Assembly (NCBI GenBank): GCA_026397455.1
Contig: JAPLUX010000096.1
Span: 1-13,336, forward strand
Direction of reading: 5' to 3'
DNA from: Candidatus Aenigmatarchaeota archaeon
Lineage (GTDB): Archaea > Aenigmatarchaeota > Aenigmatarchaeia > CG10238-14
Length of the DNA stretch: 13,336 nt
Under the pieces are notes generated by a model. That model saw only the letters and a program-made list of their open reading frames with translations. It did not search any database and was not told the DNA's origin. This document shows positions 1,694 to 6,470 of this stretch, one piece after another (position 1 is the stretch's first letter; every line of letters starts with the position of its first letter). Both the position numbers and the translations under genes were made by a program.

Positions 1694-1694
1694 G

Positions 1695-1824
1695 TGCAGG
1701 GGGAGAGATTCGAACTCTCGAACTCACTAAGAGACAGGATTTCCCAAGTCATTCTTAAGTCTCGCATTCTGAGTTTCGCATTCAATCGAATCCTGCGCCT
1801 TTGACCAGACTTGGCAACCCCTGC
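1695..1824 (-). tRNA. tRNA-Leu with expanded anticodon region (probable two introns; anticodon UAA or CAG)
   Basis: Read on the minus strand, the acceptor arms GCAGGGG (1824-1818) and CCCCTGC pair fully, and the discriminator is A (1695). No CCA is encoded. The D arm (GCC...GGC), T arm (GAGAG-TTCGAAT-CTCTC) and long variable arm (CTC-TTAGT-GAG then TTC) fit archaeal tRNA-Leu rather than Ser, whose discriminator is usually G. The anticodon stem CAGGA/TCCTG (1795-1791 and 1739-1735) encloses 51 nt instead of 7. A splice motif at the 3' side would pair UGGG before the AAA bulge with either CUUA (giving loop CUUAAGA, anticodon UAA, 3' intron 1741-1753) or CUCA (loop CUCAGAA, anticodon CAG, 3' intron 1741-1767). 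Either choice also needs an upstream intron starting near 1790, and I found no good BHB motif for that one. The Leu call is firm; the anticodon and intron borders are not. Confidence 0.85.
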
Positions 1825-1839
1825 GCTAATAAAGATATT

Positions 1840-1849
1840 ATAGAAACAG
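1840..1849 (+). repeat. Candidate left attachment repeat
   Basis: ATAGAAACAG is repeated exactly and in direct orientation at 5675-5684. It lies 16 bp upstream of the tRNA-Leu 5' end, not in the tRNA gene, so this would not be the common integration into a tRNA 3' end. Confidence 0.5.
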
Positions 1850-1864
1850 ATTATTTAATTAAAT
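1849..1864 (-). promoter_or_regulatory. TATA-like box upstream of tRNA-Leu
   Basis: On the minus strand, TTTAATTAAATAAT is centred about 32 bp from the tRNA 5' end, a suitable distance for an archaeal TATA box. It lies on the element side of the left repeat. If the element borders are right, the mobile element supplies the promoter of this tRNA. This is inference from position. Confidence 0.4.
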
Positions 1865-1884
1865 TAATAAACAGTATGTTACGT

Positions 1885-1958
1885 TTTTATACCAAGTTTT
1901 ACAGTTTTAGTATGGTCATTCAAAAAAGCACATTTTTATAACAGTTTTAGGTATAAAA
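1885..1958. repeat. Cluster of short direct and inverted repeats at the element's left end
   Basis: ACAGTTTTAG occurs at 1901-1910 and 1941-1950, exactly 40 bp apart. TTTTATACC (1885-1893) and GGTATAAAA (1950-1958) form a 9-bp inverted repeat around them. AACAG, part of the attachment repeat, also recurs at 1845, 1870, 1940 and 1987. The arrangement would suit binding sites for the integrase or another element protein, but no function is shown. Confidence 0.45.
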
Positions 1959-1976
1959 GAAAGCAGAATTTAAGGA

Positions 1977-2117
1977 CTATTGTTCTAACAGACTAGGACA
2001 ATATTTTAAATGAGTTTTAATGCCAAAATTTGAAATATACAAATGACAATTAGGACACATTACAGGTTTTATACCAGCTTGTAACAAAAATTTCATATCT
2101 TTGTTTCTACCAACCAT
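1977..2117 (-). CDS. 46-residue C2HC zinc-finger protein
   Basis: This short gene is read on the minus strand from ATG 2117 to TAG at 1977-1979. The product has C21-x2-C24-x11-H36-x3-C40 (MCPNCHLYI...KTHLKYC), a compact C2HC zinc finger. Basic residues before it (GRNKDMK) would suit nucleic-acid binding. Such single-finger proteins are common in archaeal plasmids and viruses, where many act as transcription regulators; that role is inferred here. A TATA-like run (TTATATTTTATAAAAATA on the minus strand, about 2131-2149) lies roughly 20-30 bp before the start, so it is probably transcribed from its own leaderless promoter. It is the element gene nearest the left repeat. A competing minus-strand reading frame at 2093-2281 overlaps it and looks spurious. 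Confidence 0.75.
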   Translation of the reverse strand: MVGRNKDMKFLLQAGIKPVMCPNCHLYISNFGIKTHLKYCPSLLEQ

Positions 2118-2217
2118 AAACAACAGCTACTTATTTTTATAAAATATAATTTTAATTCTTCTTTCTTCTTTCTTCTATGTTGATTTGCCAGTACTCTATA
2201 TCTACGTAATATACTAA

Positions 2218-2904
2218 TTATTTTAGATATGATATCAGTAGAACCGATATACCAAACAACAACCACGATAACCACAACCATTTTTTAGATACATATTTTC
2301 CAGTTTCAGATGGTATTTTTAATTGTAATGCAGTAATTGATTTTCTTAACAACGTATTATCTAAACCCAAATTAACATTATCTATTGTCATTTTATCTAT
2401 TGTTTGTTTTTGATCTTCTATTGTTTTATTTGCTACGTCTAATTTAGATTGTAATGTGGTGTTATCAAAAATTATTTTATCCTTAGCTTCTATGTCATGT
2501 TGTAGATTGGTTATCGTTTCATTCAGATTATTTATTTGAGATTGTGTTTCAGAATTAACTTCAGTTTTAGCATTTTCTAATTGTTGTTTTAGTTCAGTAA
2601 TAGTTGTGGTTAAACCAGTAATTTTAACAAGATGCTCTTTTTCATTGATGTCCATTACATGGCATAGTCTTTCAATTTTATTTTTATCACTTAGTCCAAT
2701 TATACCGCTATCACGATAAAGTCTTTTAGCGTTAACAAGAGTATCTATTAGTTTTCTTACAACCTTCTCACTACAACCAACATCTAATGCAATAGAACTA
2801 ATGGTTTCTTTTTCTTCAAGTTCAGTATCAAGAGTTTTAAAACTATTTCTTAATGCAACATTAACCCTATCTTTTTGTTTAAGATTTGAATTCCATTCAT
2901 TCAT
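2218..2904 (-). CDS. HTH / coiled-coil protein with C-terminal membrane anchor
   Basis: The 228-residue protein has three parts. Residues about 10-65 look like a helix-turn-helix or winged-helix domain (ETISSIALDVGCSEKVVRKL at 33-52, then a basic stretch). Residues about 88-195 are a long coiled coil rich in L/I heptads and Q, N, E, K, D. Residues 209-227 (LWLSWLLFGISVLLISYL) form one membrane helix ending two residues from the C terminus, typical of a tail anchor with the bulk in the cytoplasm. This suggests a protein linking DNA to the membrane. No family was recognised. It follows the 51-residue gene by 4 bp (stop at 2909-2911, ATG at 2904), so the two are probably co-translated in the rep operon. 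Roles in plasmid partition, replication anchoring or regulation are all conceivable and none is shown. Confidence 0.8.
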   Translation of the reverse strand: MNEWNSNLKQKDRVNVALRNSFKTLDTELEEKETISSIALDVGCSEKVVRKLIDTLVNAKRLYRDSGIIGLSDKNKIERLCHVMDINEKEHLVKITGLTTTITELKQQLENAKTEVNSETQSQINNLNETITNLQHDIEAKDKIIFDNTTLQSKLDVANKTIEDQKQTIDKMTIDNVNLGLDNTLLRKSITALQLKIPSETGKYVSKKWLWLSWLLFGISVLLISYLK

Positions 2905-2908
2905 AGTA

Positions 2909-3064
2909 TCATTTTTCTACATTACCTAAGACTTTATCTAAATATTTTATCGGTTTTATATCAGTTATCGTAGTCCGTACGATAAAATATCTTCCATCTT
3001 TCGATTTGCAATAACTCACTTTAATTATCGGCATATTGCGAATTTTTTCTTCCAGTTTGTCCAT
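2909..3064 (-). CDS. 51-residue protein of unknown function in the rep operon
   Basis: The reading frame runs on the minus strand from ATG 3064 to TGA at 2909-2911. The product starts MDKLEEKIRNMPIIKVSYCK and ends near KYLDKVLGNVEK, mixed charged with a central beta-prone stretch (DGRYFIVRTTITDI). I do not recognise a family. Support comes from context: it overlaps the end of the zinc-ribbon gene by 44 bp in another frame, and its stop is 4 bp from the start of the coiled-coil gene, making a continuous chain rep - zinc ribbon - this gene - coiled-coil gene. The protein-like composition over the overlap argues that it is real, but it is too short to be certain. Confidence 0.6.
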   Translation of the reverse strand: MDKLEEKIRNMPIIKVSYCKSKDGRYFIVRTTITDIKPIKYLDKVLGNVEK

Positions 3065-3191
3065 TTATTCCACCCCAAATTTTTAAACAATTTTTACAAA
3101 AAACTACATGATCTCCGATAAAAGATCTTTTAATCGGTGTATCGTGTAAGCAAAAACTACATTGTAACATAATTTTATGGCAATTTGTCAT
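3021..3191 (-). CDS. Small zinc-ribbon protein, start overlapping the rep stop codon
   Basis: On the minus strand an ATG at 3191 overlaps the rep stop codon as ATGA, the classic arrangement for translational coupling. It opens a 56-residue frame ending in TAA at 3021-3023. An internal ATG at 3170 would give 49 residues. From the later start, C4-x2-C7 (QCSFC) and C25-x2-C28 (FCKNC) form a four-cysteine zinc ribbon around a short beta-prone loop. The tail after residue 30 is likely disordered (GGINGQTGRKNSQYADN) and coincides with the overlapping downstream gene. A nucleic-acid-binding or Rep-accessory role is plausible, but nothing in the sequence fixes it. Confidence 0.68.
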   Translation of the reverse strand: MTNCHKIMLQCSFCLHDTPIKRSFIGDHVVFCKNCLKIWGGINGQTGRKNSQYADN

Positions 3192-4093
3192 GGATAACCA
3201 ACCCCAAAAGGATTATTTTCAGTGGTAAACCAACCGATTGATGTTGAACCACAATTTTGACATACAAATTTAGGTAAAGTTATTTCTATATCGTATTTAA
3301 TGCGATAAAAAATCCCAGTTGTGGATAATTTCCTTTTTCTATAAACTTCAGCTAAGAATAAAGGTGTATGTTTGCTAATGTAAGATGCTATATAAGAGAT
3401 GGCTTTTTTTGAATTAGAAACCTTTTGAATAAAAACAATAGGAAAACTGGTTAAAGATTCCCAGGTTTTAGATATTTTTGATTGTTCAACATATAAACCA
3501 TAAATTATTGCATGAATGTGTAATTTTTTTCCCTGGGAACCACTTTCGAAACAGTAAATCGTATTTTCCCAATGTAATTTTTTTCGTAATTTATGAAATT
3601 TATCACGGAGAAAATCAACATTTTGTTTATTTGGTTCTAAATCAGCGGTTAATGTTACAAATTTTAGATTCCTATTATGTAATTCTAGAAGATGTTTAAC
3701 ACGATAAAAAAATCTACCAAACACTTTTTTATTACAATCAGGACAGAATGGTAGATAACAATATGTGATAAATCTTTTTGATTCTATAAATTCACGACAT
3801 GATTTACAGTATGGTATTCTAGCAAATTTTTTACAATTTGAATAACGCCATTCAATTTGTAATAGATTAGTTTTAACATATTGTGGTATTTTATCGTCTA
3901 AATACACTTTTCGCATTTCATTATAAGTTATTTCTTTAGTATCAAGTGAAGTATTACGCAAAGAATCCAACAAGAAAGCGTCCGCTTTCTTATTATTATC
4001 CAAAGAATTTGTAGGATCATGATTTATGTGAGTATCATTCGGTAATAGAATACTCTTATTTATATTTTCTAATCTATAGTTTTCATTGGTCAA
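3188..4093 (-). CDS. rep: Rolling-circle replication initiator (HUH endonuclease, Rep)
   Basis: This 301-residue protein shows the ordered motifs of HUH Rep proteins. Motif 1 is FVTLT (145-149). Motif 2 is HIHAIIYG with the metal-binding pair H192 and H194, preceded by the typical E-S-G-S-Q-G-K-K-L. Motif 3 is AISYIASYISKH, with candidate nicking tyrosines Y234 and Y238 and K241. An upstream zinc-binding module has C96-x2-C99 and C117-x2-C120, with C87 and C112 nearby. A C-terminal C278-x2-C281 may bind a second metal. Such enzymes nick the plasmid or phage origin, stay bound to the 5' end and start rolling-circle replication. The start is TTG at 4093, directly after an in-frame TAA; the nearby ATG at 4086 is out of frame. 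It heads a leftward operon, with a micro-gene (4124-4228) just upstream. A transposase of the HUH class is less likely given the integrase next door. Confidence 0.85.
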   Translation of the reverse strand: MTNENYRLENINKSILLPNDTHINHDPTNSLDNNKKADAFLLDSLRNTSLDTKEITYNEMRKVYLDDKIPQYVKTNLLQIEWRYSNCKKFARIPYCKSCREFIESKRFITYCYLPFCPDCNKKVFGRFFYRVKHLLELHNRNLKFVTLTADLEPNKQNVDFLRDKFHKLRKKLHWENTIYCFESGSQGKKLHIHAIIYGLYVEQSKISKTWESLTSFPIVFIQKVSNSKKAISYIASYISKHTPLFLAEVYRKRKLSTTGIFYRIKYDIEITLPKFVCQNCGSTSIGWFTTENNPFGVGYP

Positions 4094-4123
4094 TTAAATC
4101 ACTTTTTTATTTTTTCTTATTCT

Positions 4124-4228
4124 TTAACCATCACCTTTAAGAGATTTTTCAGAATCTTTAACTACTACAATCTTTAAACCATCTTTAGCTAATTGGTCTT
4201 CTAGAATCTGGAAAAATGTCTTTTCCAT
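4124..4228 (-). CDS. Putative micro-gene upstream of rep (34 residues, or 47 from TTG 4267)
   Basis: ATG 4228 opens a 34-residue frame ending in TAA at 4124-4126 (MEKTFFQILEDQLAKDGLKI then VVVKDSEKSLKGDG). The frame is open upstream to a TTG at 4267, which would add LNIPFTITHFLIN. Rep itself starts with TTG, so the longer form is possible. A second minus-strand frame over about 4158-4275 also reads like protein (EYTFHDNPFFDKYGKDIF) but has no start codon. The region could therefore be a decayed or frameshifted gene rather than an intact one. Position between promoter and rep suits a leader or copy-control peptide; this is speculation. Confidence 0.35.
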   Translation of the reverse strand: MEKTFFQILEDQLAKDGLKIVVVKDSEKSLKGDG

Positions 4229-4289
4229 ATTTATCAAAAAATGGGTTATCGTGAAAGGTATATTCAATTGTATGATAATTTTGAGCGAG

Positions 4290-4312
4290 ATATTATGGAA
4301 ATTTCATAATAT
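4290..4312. promoter_or_regulatory. Near-perfect palindrome in the rep control region
   Basis: Arms ATATTATG (4290-4297) and CATAATAT (4305-4312) are perfect reverse complements. The 7-bp spacer GAAATTT itself contains AAATTT, so only one base breaks full symmetry over 23 bp. It sits in the divergent gap between the leftward rep operon and the rightward 4341 gene and overlaps the TATA-like sequence. It could be a repressor operator or the cruciform of a rolling-circle origin; the sequence alone does not decide. Confidence 0.55.
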
Positions 4313-4318
4313 TTAAGG
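4308..4318. promoter_or_regulatory. Bidirectional TATA-like element (rep operon and 4341 gene)
   Basis: AATATTTAAGG lies 23-32 bp before the ATG at 4341, the spacing of a leaderless archaeal promoter. Its complement CCTTAAATATT would place a leftward start site near 4284, ahead of the rep operon. Overlap with the palindrome suggests that both directions could be controlled together. Confidence 0.45.
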
Positions 4319-4340
4319 TTTATTTTTCATAATTTTTATA

Positions 4341-4634
4341 ATGACTAAACCAAAAGAACCAAGATTATCACGTAGAGAAGTAGAATATATCACATTACGG
4401 AAATATCATAATAAAAATACAGAAGCTCAGATTAGATATAATATTAACGTCAAAATTGATAATTGTAGAGAATTTTTAACAACAATCCATAAATCTAAAT
4501 TATCAAATAAGTTTAATATTCCGAGTAAATTAAGTGGTTATGGATTAACAATACAGAATGAACCAGATATTATTGAAGAAATAAGGAGAGCAAAAGATGA
4601 ATATAAAAAAACAAAAGAAATCAAGAAACAATAA
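4341..4634 (+). CDS. Basic 97-residue protein of unknown function
   Basis: This is the only rightward gene of the element. The product is strongly charged. The N terminus (KEPRLSRREVEYITLRKYHN) is basic and helical, a middle part has NCREFLTTIHKSKL, and the C terminus is a Lys/Glu helix (EEIRRAKDEYKKTKEIKKQ). No cysteine pairs or membrane segments are seen. Size, charge and divergence from rep would suit a small DNA-binding regulator, but no family is recognised. The start fits a TATA box about 25 bp upstream, without a Shine-Dalgarno sequence. Its last 14 bp overlap the 3' end of the convergent integrase gene. Confidence 0.7.
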   Translation: MTKPKEPRLSRREVEYITLRKYHNKNTEAQIRYNINVKIDNCREFLTTIHKSKLSNKFNIPSKLSGYGLTIQNEPDIIEEIRRAKDEYKKTKEIKKQ

Positions 4635-5622
4635 CCTTTAATTTACCTTTTTTTTCCAATTCTTTAAACTCAGTTAAAAAGAATTCCTTTATTTTTTTAG
4701 GATCTATCATATTTACAGCAAGTTCCATATCATTAGGTAGTTGTTTTTGTTGGTATAATTGAGATAATTTCTCGGTCAAACTATCTAAATTAGGTTTAAT
4801 GTAAATTCGTGGCATTTTAGAGCCATATTTCCAACCAAACATATCGCACATTTCAAATTCGGTAAAATTTTTGTTTTTTAATTCGTAAGCCCTTGAATGT
4901 CTAAAACAATGTGGTGTTAGGTGTTTTGTGATTGCGCTTCTATTAATTACACGTAAAAAAAGACTACGTGCAGGTAAATATTGTAAACGTTTATTAAAGT
5001 TTCGTGTTCCACCACCAACCCATAAAGGGGAATTAGGTTGTTTTAATGGGTGGTGTTCCAACCAATTGTTTAAGTCATTTACACTATCAAATAACGGTAT
5101 TTTTCTTACGCCAGTTTTCCCAGTTACATAAAAATAAGTTCCTTTAATATCGTGTTGTATATCCTTTATATCTAAACGTAATATTTCAGAAATTCTACAA
5201 CCACTTTCATACAAAACATGCGTAAAAGCAAGTTCCATTACGGTACTAGTATTGTTTAAAATAATTTGTAATTCTTCTTTCGTTATAGTTGGTTTATGTG
5301 GTAATTCTTCATTACGTTTAACAGTCGTTCCAAACCAGTCCACTATTTCAGGATAAACATTTTGTTTTTCAATACCATACAACCACTTATAGAAACGTTT
5401 TATGGTTATACGAAATTGTTGACGTGTATAAGGATTTTCATATTTTTCATTAATTTTTATCAACAGTTGTTCTATATCGGTTTGAATAGCATTTTTAAAC
5501 GGCTTATTAAGTAATTGTGATATTATTCCCAAACTACATTTATAATTGTTTAAGCGCCCTTTACCTATTCCTTTTGCAGTCATGTATTGCAGGAATTGTG
5601 ATATCAATTGTTCATTTTTCAT
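4621..5622 (-). CDS. int: Tyrosine recombinase / integrase
   Basis: The 333-residue protein has the two-domain build of tyrosine recombinases. Residues about 1-85 form a SAM-like core-binding domain (LISQFLQYMTAKGIGKGRL...TRQQFRITIKRFYKWL). Residues about 112-290 form the catalytic domain with all expected residues: R143 in ESGCRISEILRL, K169 in TGKTGVRKIPL, H238 and R241 in PHCFRHSR, W264 in place of the second His in MFGWKYG, and nucleophile Y274 in MPRIYI. It should carry out strand exchange between a circular form and the host site. The C-terminal 40 residues are a charged extension. It is transcribed towards the element centre and starts 53 bp from the right repeat, the usual position of an integrase beside its attachment site. 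The gene is intact and not split, unlike SSV-type integrases that carry the attachment site inside. Confidence 0.93.
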   Translation of the reverse strand: MKNEQLISQFLQYMTAKGIGKGRLNNYKCSLGIISQLLNKPFKNAIQTDIEQLLIKINEKYENPYTRQQFRITIKRFYKWLYGIEKQNVYPEIVDWFGTTVKRNEELPHKPTITKEELQIILNNTSTVMELAFTHVLYESGCRISEILRLDIKDIQHDIKGTYFYVTGKTGVRKIPLFDSVNDLNNWLEHHPLKQPNSPLWVGGGTRNFNKRLQYLPARSLFLRVINRSAITKHLTPHCFRHSRAYELKNKNFTEFEMCDMFGWKYGSKMPRIYIKPNLDSLTEKLSQLYQQKQLPNDMELAVNMIDPKKIKEFFLTEFKELEKKGKLKVIVS

Positions 5623-5674
5623 GATTCGTTAAATGAAAACTTAACTTTTAATACCTATTTATGAAACACATAAC

Positions 5675-5684
5675 ATAGAAACAG
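5675..5684 (+). repeat. Candidate right attachment repeat
   Basis: This is the second exact copy of ATAGAAACAG (first at 1840-1849, same orientation). It ends directly at the rpoD stop codon (5685-5687), so integration left the rpoD reading frame intact. Confidence 0.5.
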
Positions 5685-6470
5685 TTATTTTAACTTTCTT
5701 AAATCTTTCGAGAATTCATCCAATTTTTCTTCAACTATGTCTATTGCTCTCGACACGATTTCTTCTGGCTTCAACCCGCATGCAGTCTCAACATTGAACA
5801 CGTAATTTGTCTCATCAGGTTCAACTTTTACCACACCGTTAGAAAGTTCCATACACTGTAAACATAAATTGCAATCGAGCAACTTACTGACTTTCAATTT
5901 TTTATCCTCGAATACAAACACATGTCTAGGACATCTTTTTTCATATTCCTCATTATCCCCATCCTTGCCAATAGTTATCTTCGGGATATTCCTGTAACCC
6001 ACTACAGCAGCTTGCCACTTTGCATGTTCCTTTCCTAGACCCAACTGTGCGAACGCTTCAAATTCTATCTCTTGTCCTTCTGTCAATTCTACAATCAGTA
6101 TCTTCTCATAAAAAGGTTTCATTTTTTCATCAGACGGTACCATGTCACCAGCATAAACCATGCAAGGACCTTTCTTCTTGAGTTTGAAACTCACTTGACA
6201 ATGTGTACAACCTTTTCCATCACATTTACAATCATTCTTAAAGTTGTAGAATTTTGCATCGTATACCAGTGGAATCAAACCAAGTCTACTGGCTATTATC
6301 TCATCCCATAAAACAGAATCATTCTTGACAAAATCAACCCATTCTATTGCCATAGTTGGGATTCCAGAAATCATTATCCTTCTCAACTCACCTGCCAAAG
6401 CAGAATTTATATCGTCGATAGTGAACCTTATCTTTTCCTTATTTTTTTCAAGAATCTTTATTTCCAACAA
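5685..6470 (-). CDS. rpoD: DNA-directed RNA polymerase subunit D (Rpo3)
   Basis: The 261-residue protein matches archaeal Rpo3, the alpha-like assembly subunit that pairs with subunit L. N-terminal SALAGELRRIMISGIPTMAI is the dimerisation region, and SRLGLIPLVYD and LGLGKEHAKWQ are family signatures. The inserted domain keeps two cysteine sets: C81, C83, C88, C91 (CKCDGKGCTHC) and C180, C200, C203, C206 (CPRH...DCNLCLQC). The latter is ferredoxin-like, as in Rpo3 proteins that hold a 4Fe-4S cluster. The frame opens with two TTG codons (6470 and 6467) after an in-frame stop. GGTGA at 6473-6477 is 4 bp from the second, the same spacing as at the 11116 gene, so translation probably starts at 6467. 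It is the last gene of the rps13-rps4-rps11-rpoD cluster. The candidate mobile element begins at its stop codon. Confidence 0.95.
   Translation of the reverse strand: MLEIKILEKNKEKIRFTIDDINSALAGELRRIMISGIPTMAIEWVDFVKNDSVLWDEIIASRLGLIPLVYDAKFYNFKNDCKCDGKGCTHCQVSFKLKKKGPCMVYAGDMVPSDEKMKPFYEKILIVELTEGQEIEFEAFAQLGLGKEHAKWQAAVVGYRNIPKITIGKDGDNEEYEKRCPRHVFVFEDKKLKVSKLLDCNLCLQCMELSNGVVKVEPDETNYVFNVETACGLKPEEIVSRAIDIVEEKLDEFSKDLRKLK

Follow-up and report, generated by a model that had tools for sequence, protein, structure and literature searches.

Small cryptic integrated elements have been described in Thaumarchaeota, and their short att sites were verified against genomes with and without the insert. 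Among the elements with defined sites, 14 of 68 use the 3′-distal regions of protein genes; NitUzo-E2 is 2.6 kb long and carries an integrase, and one element, NitAQ6f-E2, encodes a rolling-circle Rep described as homologous to that of SNJ1 (available sections of PMC6563490). The betapleolipovirus SNJ2 is a temperate archaeal virus with a rolling-circle initiator and an integrase, and Rep-Arvir has a non-HUH, TBP-like fold (PF25227) (PMC13107129, in the part available). Further, inoviruses with integrases, three integrase genes in all, were reported for archaea including Aenigmarchaeota and Methanosarcinaceae (partial text of PMC6813254).

The window analysed in this study is a 13,336-nt stretch from a Candidatus Aenigmatarchaeota archaeon (contig JAPLUX010000096.1). 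It holds a 3,835-bp integrated element with base-precise ends, located between rpoD and tRNA-Leu in the chromosome of this uncultured archaeon (Table 1). As far as the available text of the above reports goes, the element resembles those of Thaumarchaeota in being small, integrated and bounded by short att sites, but it differs from them in archaeal phylum and in its target, rpoD/tRNA-Leu; its Rep belongs to PF23343, with named matches in microviruses and a Thermotoga plasmid, whereas that of NitAQ6f-E2 is SNJ1-like. The pairing of Rep and integrase is shared with SNJ2, as described in the part available, although SNJ2 is a virus and the Rep studied here is of the HUH type. The archaeal inoviruses, to judge from the partial text, are likewise small integrated elements and probably of the same phylum, but pI/Zot ATPase, by which inoviruses are recognised, gave no match above the cut-off among the element proteins scanned.

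We read the locus as an integrative rolling-circle plasmid that belongs with the archaeal cryptic integrated elements, already known as a class, with a probability of about 0.88. It carries its own integrase and its own Rep without recognised virion genes, and its repeat boundaries fit the empty site. The initial annotation had proposed a ~3.8-kb element with a Rep, an integrase, an HTH/coiled-coil/tail-anchor protein and several micro-genes, all of which are present, and its integrative-plasmid reading holds, since the relatives have no insert at this site, the repeat marks the boundary, and Rep and Int are intact.

Table 1. Features of the integrated element and its flanks (window coordinates)
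Feature	Position	Strand	Evidence
tRNA-Leu(UAA) with intron (flank); follows rpoD in the empty state	1694..1824	-	ARAGORN with introns; CTTAAG
att core repeat, tRNA side (ATAGAAACAG)	1840..1849	.	Exact repeat; matches relatives' empty site
46-aa micro-gene, CPNC...H...C zinc-finger-like motif	1977..2117	-	ORF scan; weak C2HC match, E 0.009, below cut-off
228-aa protein with putative N-terminal HTH, coiled coil and C-terminal membrane segment	2218..2904	-	Weak matches; hydropathy
51-aa micro-gene	2909..3064	-	ORF; no credible family match
56-aa micro-gene, two CxxC pairs	3021..3191	-	ORF; weak matches, below cut-off where one exists
HUH rolling-circle Rep, two-tyrosine motif YIASYISK, CxxC pairs either side	3188..4093	-	PF23343 above cut-off
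Possible 34-aa micro-gene just upstream of rep	4124..4228	-	ORF scan; DUF7000 (E 0.027) sole weak match, below cut-off
11-bp-arm inverted repeat between divergent rep and 97-aa genes	4290..4312	.	Similar 18-mer at 4396-4413
97-aa protein, 3′ end overlaps int 3′ end	4341..4634	+	ORF; no meaningful family match
Tyrosine integrase, 333 aa	4621..5622	-	PF00589 E 3e-16; motif words; family comparison
att core repeat, rpoD/int side (ATAGAAACAG)	5675..5684	.	Exact repeat and empty-site comparison
rpoD, gene for RNA polymerase subunit D (flank); att core adjoins its stop codon	5685..6470	-	PF01000 and PF01193

Boundaries and the empty site

The repeat ATAGAAACAG recurs with a period of 3,835 bp (1840-1849 and 5675-5684), and the predicted recombination core of the integrase is the CTGTTTCTAT core. 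By itself, a 10-bp repeat is within chance, as mononucleotide shuffling of the two 100-bp end regions produced one of that length in 23 of 400 trials. An empty rpoD–tRNA-Leu junction was looked for in relatives, as had been proposed with the initial annotation. In all 11 family relatives examined, the same tRNA-Leu lies downstream of rpoD, directly so in ten, with a spacer of 23-44 nt, while the spacer of the remaining one is 495 nt; a gene intervenes between rpoD and the junction tRNA in the relative G001. The rpoD–tRNA distance in the window is 3,860 nt, which minus 3,835 leaves 25 nt. That is, excising one 10-bp copy together with the intervening DNA gives a 25-nt spacer, which matches the empty site of the relatives. 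In the relative G004, the order and orientation of rps4-rps11-rpoD-tRNA-DUF7847-M50 are kept, its genes on either side being those of the window.

Base composition also sets the element apart, with a GC content of 27% vs. 35% in the flanks and a GC3 of 0.15-0.21, well below the 0.31-0.35 of three host genes. It is the relatives' empty sites and the composition that secure the boundary, and we regard the empty site as the decisive evidence for an integrated element. The 10-bp repeat, initially put forward as the boundary, coincides with this empty site.

ARAGORN detected the junction tRNA only when introns were allowed, under the label Ser(cga), and gave none in the default run; its labels for the relatives' junction tRNA vary, being Leu in four of 11. 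Because CTTAAG is present in the anticodon region of the junction tRNA of the window and of all 11 counterparts, it was assigned as tRNA-Leu(UAA). A promoter swap was also considered, since TTAAATAA at the element end beside tRNA-Leu replaces TTAAAATA of rpoD at an equal distance to the tRNA. It is not claimed here, because the sequences ahead of 44 tRNA genes, checked for an A+T tract at a constant distance, gave no clear peak.

Rep and the integrase family

Two-tyrosine HUH Reps carry an FLTLT-like motif 1, an HUH motif 2 and a YxxxY motif 3. In the Rep of the element these appear as FVTLTA (residue 145), HIH (192) and YIASYISK (234), and H192, H194, Y234, Y238 and K241 were invariant in an alignment with three relatives (n=4); its structure model was of middling confidence (mean pLDDT 56.4). 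The Pfam scan at E up to 1 returned PF23343 for Rep, and PF25227 (Rep-Arvir) was not matched. The integrase has all of its motif words (R, K, HxxR, W and Y), among which are those with the catalytic residues. With the PF23343 and PF00589 matches, these motif words bear out the earlier statement that both proteins are intact. Further, int is whole and overlaps neither att core, so it differs from the split gene of SSV-type (suicidal) integration.

Rep matched two of the 97 genomes searched, its own and one with a distant homologue at another locus. The counter-evidence named beforehand, distant relatives that carry these genes together at this locus, was thus not seen. In the phage collection, Rep matched 13 records (8 Microviridae, 4 bajarodmic virus and 1 Flumine microvirus; best E 8e-7); a Thermotoga mini-plasmid was matched as well, so this Rep type is not a virus marker. 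Searches of viral contigs gave no relatives of Rep, Int or the 228-residue protein, and those of genome contigs none of Rep. A Rep (P0003, 62%) and an Int (P0011, 42%) both come from contig records of 210,381 bases, with equal size as the sole ground for pairing them. No origin was located, as none of four stretches considered as origin hairpins outdid its shuffles in folding (z -1.09 to 0.80), and the inverted repeat upstream of rep is a putative operator or origin.

To quantify the distribution of the Int family, 156 genomes of the phylum, all of one class, were searched. Strong matches (E up to 1e-30) were found in 36 and matches at E up to 1e-3 in 70, the weak ones of which may be other tyrosine recombinases. 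Of the 33 distinct integrase places whose DNA was available, 18 have a tRNA whose end precedes the beginning of the integrase match by 57-187 nt, a further five have a tRNA T-loop word in that position, and neither test gave a tRNA in ten. Of 14 tRNA-adjacent loci, five repeat 11-15 bp of the tRNA 3′ end at a distance of 4.1-9.6 kb. Judged by these sequence matches, the Int family is common in the phylum and often just behind tRNA 3′ ends, and an equal geometry is seen here behind rpoD, with 62 nt from the rpoD stop to the int start. In the tree, the Int of the window forms a long branch without a supported place (2.68 vs. a median of 0.81), while the integrase P0064, named Aenigmarchaeota, groups with that of G083, a genome of the phylum. 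Two sister integrases are present in the host genome, behind tRNA-His and a tRNA-Thr-like gene. A recent descent of the Int from them was unsupported, as the sisters pair with each other.

The Int-family elements of G074, G089, G024, G005 and G016, and C41 of the host genome (G000), were compared with that of the window. In all of them Int comes first behind the 3′ end of the target gene and small accessory genes are present, as here, but they target tRNA 3′ ends whereas the window element sits at rpoD/tRNA-Leu; those outside the host genome have 11-15 bp repeats 4.1-9.6 kb apart. The element of G074, from another genus, is a second one combining Rep and Int, 9.6 kb long at tRNA-Tyr between 14-bp repeats, and it alone shares the PF23343 Rep, while C41 carries a Prim-Pol protein; the replication genes of the G089, G024, G005 and G016 elements were read by eye only. 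The window element points to an Int family found beside more than one kind of replication gene, HUH Rep as well as Prim-Pol. An undescribed family had been suggested initially. The Rep/228-residue gene set indeed has almost no database relatives, but the Int family is common in the phylum, and NitAQ6f-E2 and SNJ2 are already described in the available text of the reports cited above. The element is a real but fairly ordinary kind, in a little-studied group.

Plasmid, captured remnant or viral satellite

The long branch of Int and a flanking repeat of just 10 bp would also suit a dead captured element, once integrated and now a fixed chromosomal island with genes heading to decay. We consider this improbable, as the Rep, Int and 228-residue frames are open, the Rep and Int motifs are kept, the relatives' sites are without the element, and a near-identical Int C-terminus (P0005, 205 residues, one differing) recurs on a separate 3,487-base contig.

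Derivation from an ssDNA virus, filamentous or other, as a satellite or remnant that keeps Rep and Int and leaves packaging to a helper virus, would agree with the Microviridae, bajarodmic virus and Flumine microvirus labels of the Rep matches, with the integrase-bearing inoviruses reported for archaea including Aenigmarchaeota (partial text of PMC6813254), and with a contig of another genome of the phylum, G123, that carries a Zot family protein (E 1.4e-9, above the cut-off) together with a PF23343 Rep. However, no capsid family was found among the element proteins scanned, the major capsid protein being what marks a microvirus provirus; virion families gave none above the cut-off in Pfam and none credible in PHROGs (six proteins). 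PF05707 (Zot) had no match in the host genome (72% complete), and one below the cut-off in G074. With the Thermotoga mini-plasmid match of Rep added, this origin appears even less probable than a dead element. An assembly chimera of a plasmid contig and the chromosome, conceivable in a 191-contig draft, is far-fetched given that both flanks occur together in G004 and that the joint at the repeat restores the relatives' spacer.

The integrative rolling-circle plasmid is thus retained, a base-precise integrated element proven by genome comparison in a DPANN-type archaeal lineage for which no such plasmid was found in the literature searched. In its proposed cycle, Int would recombine attP with a chromosomal attB over a core of ~10 bp; the empty sites place attB directly after the rpoD stop codon and 15 nt ahead of tRNA-Leu, so that neither neighbour is disrupted. 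After excision, the circle would be copied by the HUH Rep, whose motifs suggest that one tyrosine nicks the origin and the paired one helps complete the rolling circle. As a guess, the 97-residue and zinc-finger-like micro-genes probably encode regulators or an excision factor. Should a host of the group be cultured, this 3.8 kb replicon with its base-resolved target site would be a natural start for building a genetic tool.

The 228-residue protein

Weak HTH_29, MerD and coiled-coil matches were obtained for the 228-residue protein (HTH and MerD E 0.031 and 0.034), and its hydropathy peaks at residues 209-227, with a tail value of 1.88. In the most favourable of seven registers, and without a shuffle control, heptad a/d positions are 58% hydrophobic vs. 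32% for the whole. Unrelated families were weakly matched by the coiled coil as well, including the PHROG "replication initiation protein" (E 0.0018) and models of defence proteins (E 2e-4 to 4e-4); its matches to the Gp23, scaffold and tail families of phages (E 0.0097 to 0.14) were taken as coiled-coil noise. No relatives beyond its own cluster were found in the protein database.

This predicted architecture suggests that it may be a membrane-tethered partition protein, whose HTH would bind the plasmid, whose coiled coil would oligomerise and whose tail would tether it to the membrane as a one-protein segregation aid. If so, the element would be a self-replicating, self-segregating and self-integrating archaeal mini-replicon of only 3.8 kb. 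That it forms a one-component membrane-tethered partition system, with the HTH on DNA, a parallel coiled coil and a transmembrane tail, independent of bacterial Par, RocS and TubY, is a doubtful proposal. In the available text of PMC11500499 and PMC7762940, Par (pSK1), RocS and TubY have an N-terminal HTH, a central coiled coil and a C-terminal tail, and RocS and TubY are described as binding the membrane. The 228-residue protein may be alike in architecture but has no detectable sequence relationship to them, with no family match to DUF536 or Par/RocS/TubY, and its tail looks transmembrane, in contrast to the amphipathic helix of the Par/RocS/TubY comparison.

Occupied and empty rpoD–tRNA-Leu junctions

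The window constitutes the entire contig C76 of the draft genome G000 (942,536 bases, 191 contigs, 72% complete). On the minus strand, ribosomal-protein genes are followed by rpoD, the element and an intron-bearing tRNA-Leu, past which come a plus-strand DUF7847 gene and a minus-strand gene whose product reads as an M50-type peptidase. ARAGORN detected the junction tRNA solely when introns were allowed and labeled it Ser, and its labels across the 11 family relatives were inconsistent, with Leu in four. The tRNA was assigned as tRNA-Leu(UAA), because CTTAAG in the anticodon region is common to the window and all 11 relatives.

Features of the element and its junction
Feature	Position	Strand	Remark
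rpoD	5685-6470	-	flanking gene
att core	5675-5684		rpoD/int side
int	4621-5622	-	element
97-aa gene	4341-4634	+	element, strand opposite to int
possible 34-aa gene	4124-4228	-	element
rep	3188-4093	-	element
small gene	3021-3191	-	overlaps small gene 2909-3064
small gene	2909-3064	-	overlaps small gene 3021-3191
228-aa gene	2218-2904	-	element
46-aa zinc-finger-like gene	1977-2117	-	element
att core	1840-1849		tRNA side
tRNA-Leu	1694-1824	-	flanking gene, intron-bearing

When rpoD was searched for in 12 genomes of the family, G000 included, it was present in all, and a tRNA with the same start lay downstream of it in 11/11 relatives. The initial annotation had proposed an integrated element bounded by a 10-bp direct repeat, and the relatives bear this out: ten of the 11 carry an empty junction, with spacers of 23, 31, 31, 24, 33, 23, 34, 25, 44, and 30 nt, vs. 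3,860 nt in the window. The two copies of the repeat, ATAGAAACAG, recur 3,835 bp apart; taking that length out of the spacer leaves 25 nt, within the range of the relatives. The block between rpoD and tRNA-Leu is therefore an insertion, site-specific at the 10-bp core and leaving both genes intact. The flanks joined in silico read rpoD-TAA-CTGTTTCTATAATATCTTTATTAGC-tRNA, near some natural spacers of relatives, such as CTAATTCTATAATATTAACTAAGAC (G010) and CTAATCCTATAATATTAACTAGAC (G008). The empty site of G004 shows rps4-rps11-rpoD-tRNA-DUF7847-M50 in the order and orientation of the window; within a flank of about 1.0–1.5 kb, one of the two far-side genes was seen in five further relatives and neither in the other five. 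The repeat alone is unconvincing: when the two 100-bp element ends were shuffled 400 times by mononucleotides, 23 shuffles shared a word of its length or longer. Composition agrees with import, as GC is 27% within the element vs. 35% outside, and GC3 is 0.17 for rep, 0.21 for int, and 0.15 for the 228-aa gene vs. 0.31–0.35 for three host genes.

In the remaining relative, G001, rpoD and the tRNA lie 495 nt apart, and the open frame between them reads as that of a small membrane protein; the junction may have taken up a second insertion there, unrelated to the element of the window. Further, TCCTATAA / ATCCTATAA upstream of two other tRNA-Leu genes of G000 (contigs C82 and C85; loci L004 and L005) resemble the att-core region CTATAATAT.

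Integrase and its target sites

The integrase, annotated initially as intact, indeed has an open frame matching Phage_integrase (E 3e-16) and keeps the words GCRISE, GKTG, HCFRHS, GWKYG, and RIYIK, in which the family's R, K, HxxR, W, and Y can be read. A suicidal, SSV-type arrangement was ruled out, since int is uninterrupted and lies clear of both cores. Of 156 genomes searched from the phylum, 70 gave a match with E no higher than 1e-3, and 36 of these one with E no higher than 1e-30; in a 46-row tree, Int formed a long branch placed without support. A protein-database relative, P0005, is a 205-aa Int C-terminus with one difference from Int of the window (131, L to R); its 3,487-base contig was not found in the G000 assembly, and it is possibly a second copy, a strain variant or a free form of the element.

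Apart from the window, 33 distinct integrase places were surveyed for target sites, a subset of the matches (37 rows, four being second copies). By ARAGORN, a tRNA ends 57–187 nt ahead of the integrase-match start in 18 of them, and inspection of 14 loci added five with a tRNA T-loop word ahead of int (L040, L053, L058, L061, and L069). Among the remaining ten, L057, L062, and L067 are tRNA-like by eye, L049 begins at a contig edge, and two have int behind protein genes named by reading, CBS-domain (L042, G047 C33) and ribosomal protein L44e-like (L047, G152 C44), so rpoD may not be the sole protein-gene target of this integrase family. In the window, 62 nt separate the rpoD stop from the int start; the element thus shares the int geometry of the family, with rpoD replacing the tRNA.

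Fourteen tRNA-adjacent integrase loci were searched for a repeated tRNA 3′ end, and copies of 11–15 bp overlapping that end were found in five: G074 (14 bp, 9.6 kb), G089 (14 bp, 4.1 kb), G024 (11 bp, 5.2 kb), G005 (12 bp, 7.6 kb), and G016 (15 bp, 8.6 kb). None was found in the other nine, six of which offered less than 4.5 kb of downstream DNA to search. The 11- and 12-bp repeats are weaker evidence, because L078 (one) and L087 (two) also contain stray 11-mers at a distance from the tRNA end.

G000 itself has two sister integrases, one on C85 behind tRNA-His and one on C41 behind a tRNA-Thr-like gene, and a fourth, weak match on C49 (E 1e-6). The sister element on C41 (L069; contig of 5,309 bases), whose tRNA-Thr-like gene bears an intron, also encodes a Prim-Pol protein of 732 aa (E 2.8e-11) and a further protein with membrane and coiled-coil-like parts.

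Rep, its relatives and comparable elements

The claim of an intact HUH Rep likewise held: the frame is open, PF23343 is matched at 35.5 bits (cut-off 27.8), and three motifs are present, which we take to be those of two-tyrosine HUH initiators, with CxxC pairs on both sides. Of 444 candidates scored in a protein search, three besides Rep reached E 1e-3 or better, with identities of 69%, 62%, and 45%; the residues of HIH and of YxxxYxxK do not vary between these three and Rep. The other named relatives were distant, comprising 13 phage records (eight Microviridae, four bajarodmic virus, and one Flumine microvirus; best E 8e-7) and two entries for a Thermotoga plasmid of 846 bases (E 5e-5). The AlphaFold model has a mean pLDDT of 56.4, with blocks of 56–86 over residues 81 to 230, where alternating strands and helices are predicted.

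PF23343 was found in four of the 156 genomes, G000, G074, G123, and G130. The Rep of G074 belongs to the 9.6 kb element at tRNA-Tyr, where it follows a same-family integrase at a distance of 1.8 kb. The database proteins P0003 (Rep) and P0011 (Int) are both recorded on contigs of 210,381 bases, which suggests a third Rep–Int pairing. According to the excerpt of PMC6668415, a single HUH supercluster takes in Reps from plasmids as well as from microviruses, inoviruses, and pleolipoviruses; plasmid and virus therefore cannot be told apart by Rep type.

The G123 contig (L070, C80, 4,153 bases), in a bin of the same phylum, carries a filamentous-phage-like set with a Zot family protein (E 1.4e-9), the Rep and small membrane-type frames; it could be genuine or mis-binned, and is to be compared with the inoviruses reported from Aenigmarchaeota (excerpt of PMC6813254). 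The G130 contig (L032, C336, 3,968 bases) is short, GC-rich and assigned to the bin of an archaeal genome of the phylum; Pfam gave no match for the one further frame that was scanned. We guess it to be microvirus-like; it may be phage, possibly contamination.

Comparable integrated elements are known, and the element is therefore a further member of a kind already described in archaea. Excerpts of PMC6563490 describe cryptic integrated elements in thaumarchaea, including one that carries a rolling-circle Rep and an integrase-bearing one 2.6 kb long, and count 3′-distal regions of protein genes as 14 of 68 defined sites; the review PMC8371274, in part, covers archaeal integrases and tRNA, intragenic, and intergenic sites, and PMC13107129, as excerpted, the non-HUH Rep-Arvir. 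Among the matches listed, no paper dealt with integrative rolling-circle plasmids from this phylum, nor with rpoD as a site of integration in archaea.

Putative working of the element and the 228-residue protein

Int would integrate and excise the element and Rep would copy it by rolling circle, while the 228-residue protein may aid segregation and the small proteins may act in regulation. A replication origin was looked for in the element and none was identified.

A database search with the 228-residue protein gave nothing beyond its own cluster. Its HTH signals are weak (HTH_29, E 0.031; MerD, E 0.034), and its C-terminal tail is hydrophobic. A coiled coil is probable from the heptad pattern, with a/d positions 58% hydrophobic in the best register vs. 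32% overall, a figure taken without shuffle control; this region weakly matches many unrelated families, among them a PHROG annotated as replication initiation protein (E 0.0018). RocS, pSK1 Par, and TubY, all DNA-partition factors, likewise have an HTH, a coiled coil, and a C-terminal tail in this order according to excerpts of PMC11500499 and PMC7762940, a likeness that may serve as a lead rather than as membership.
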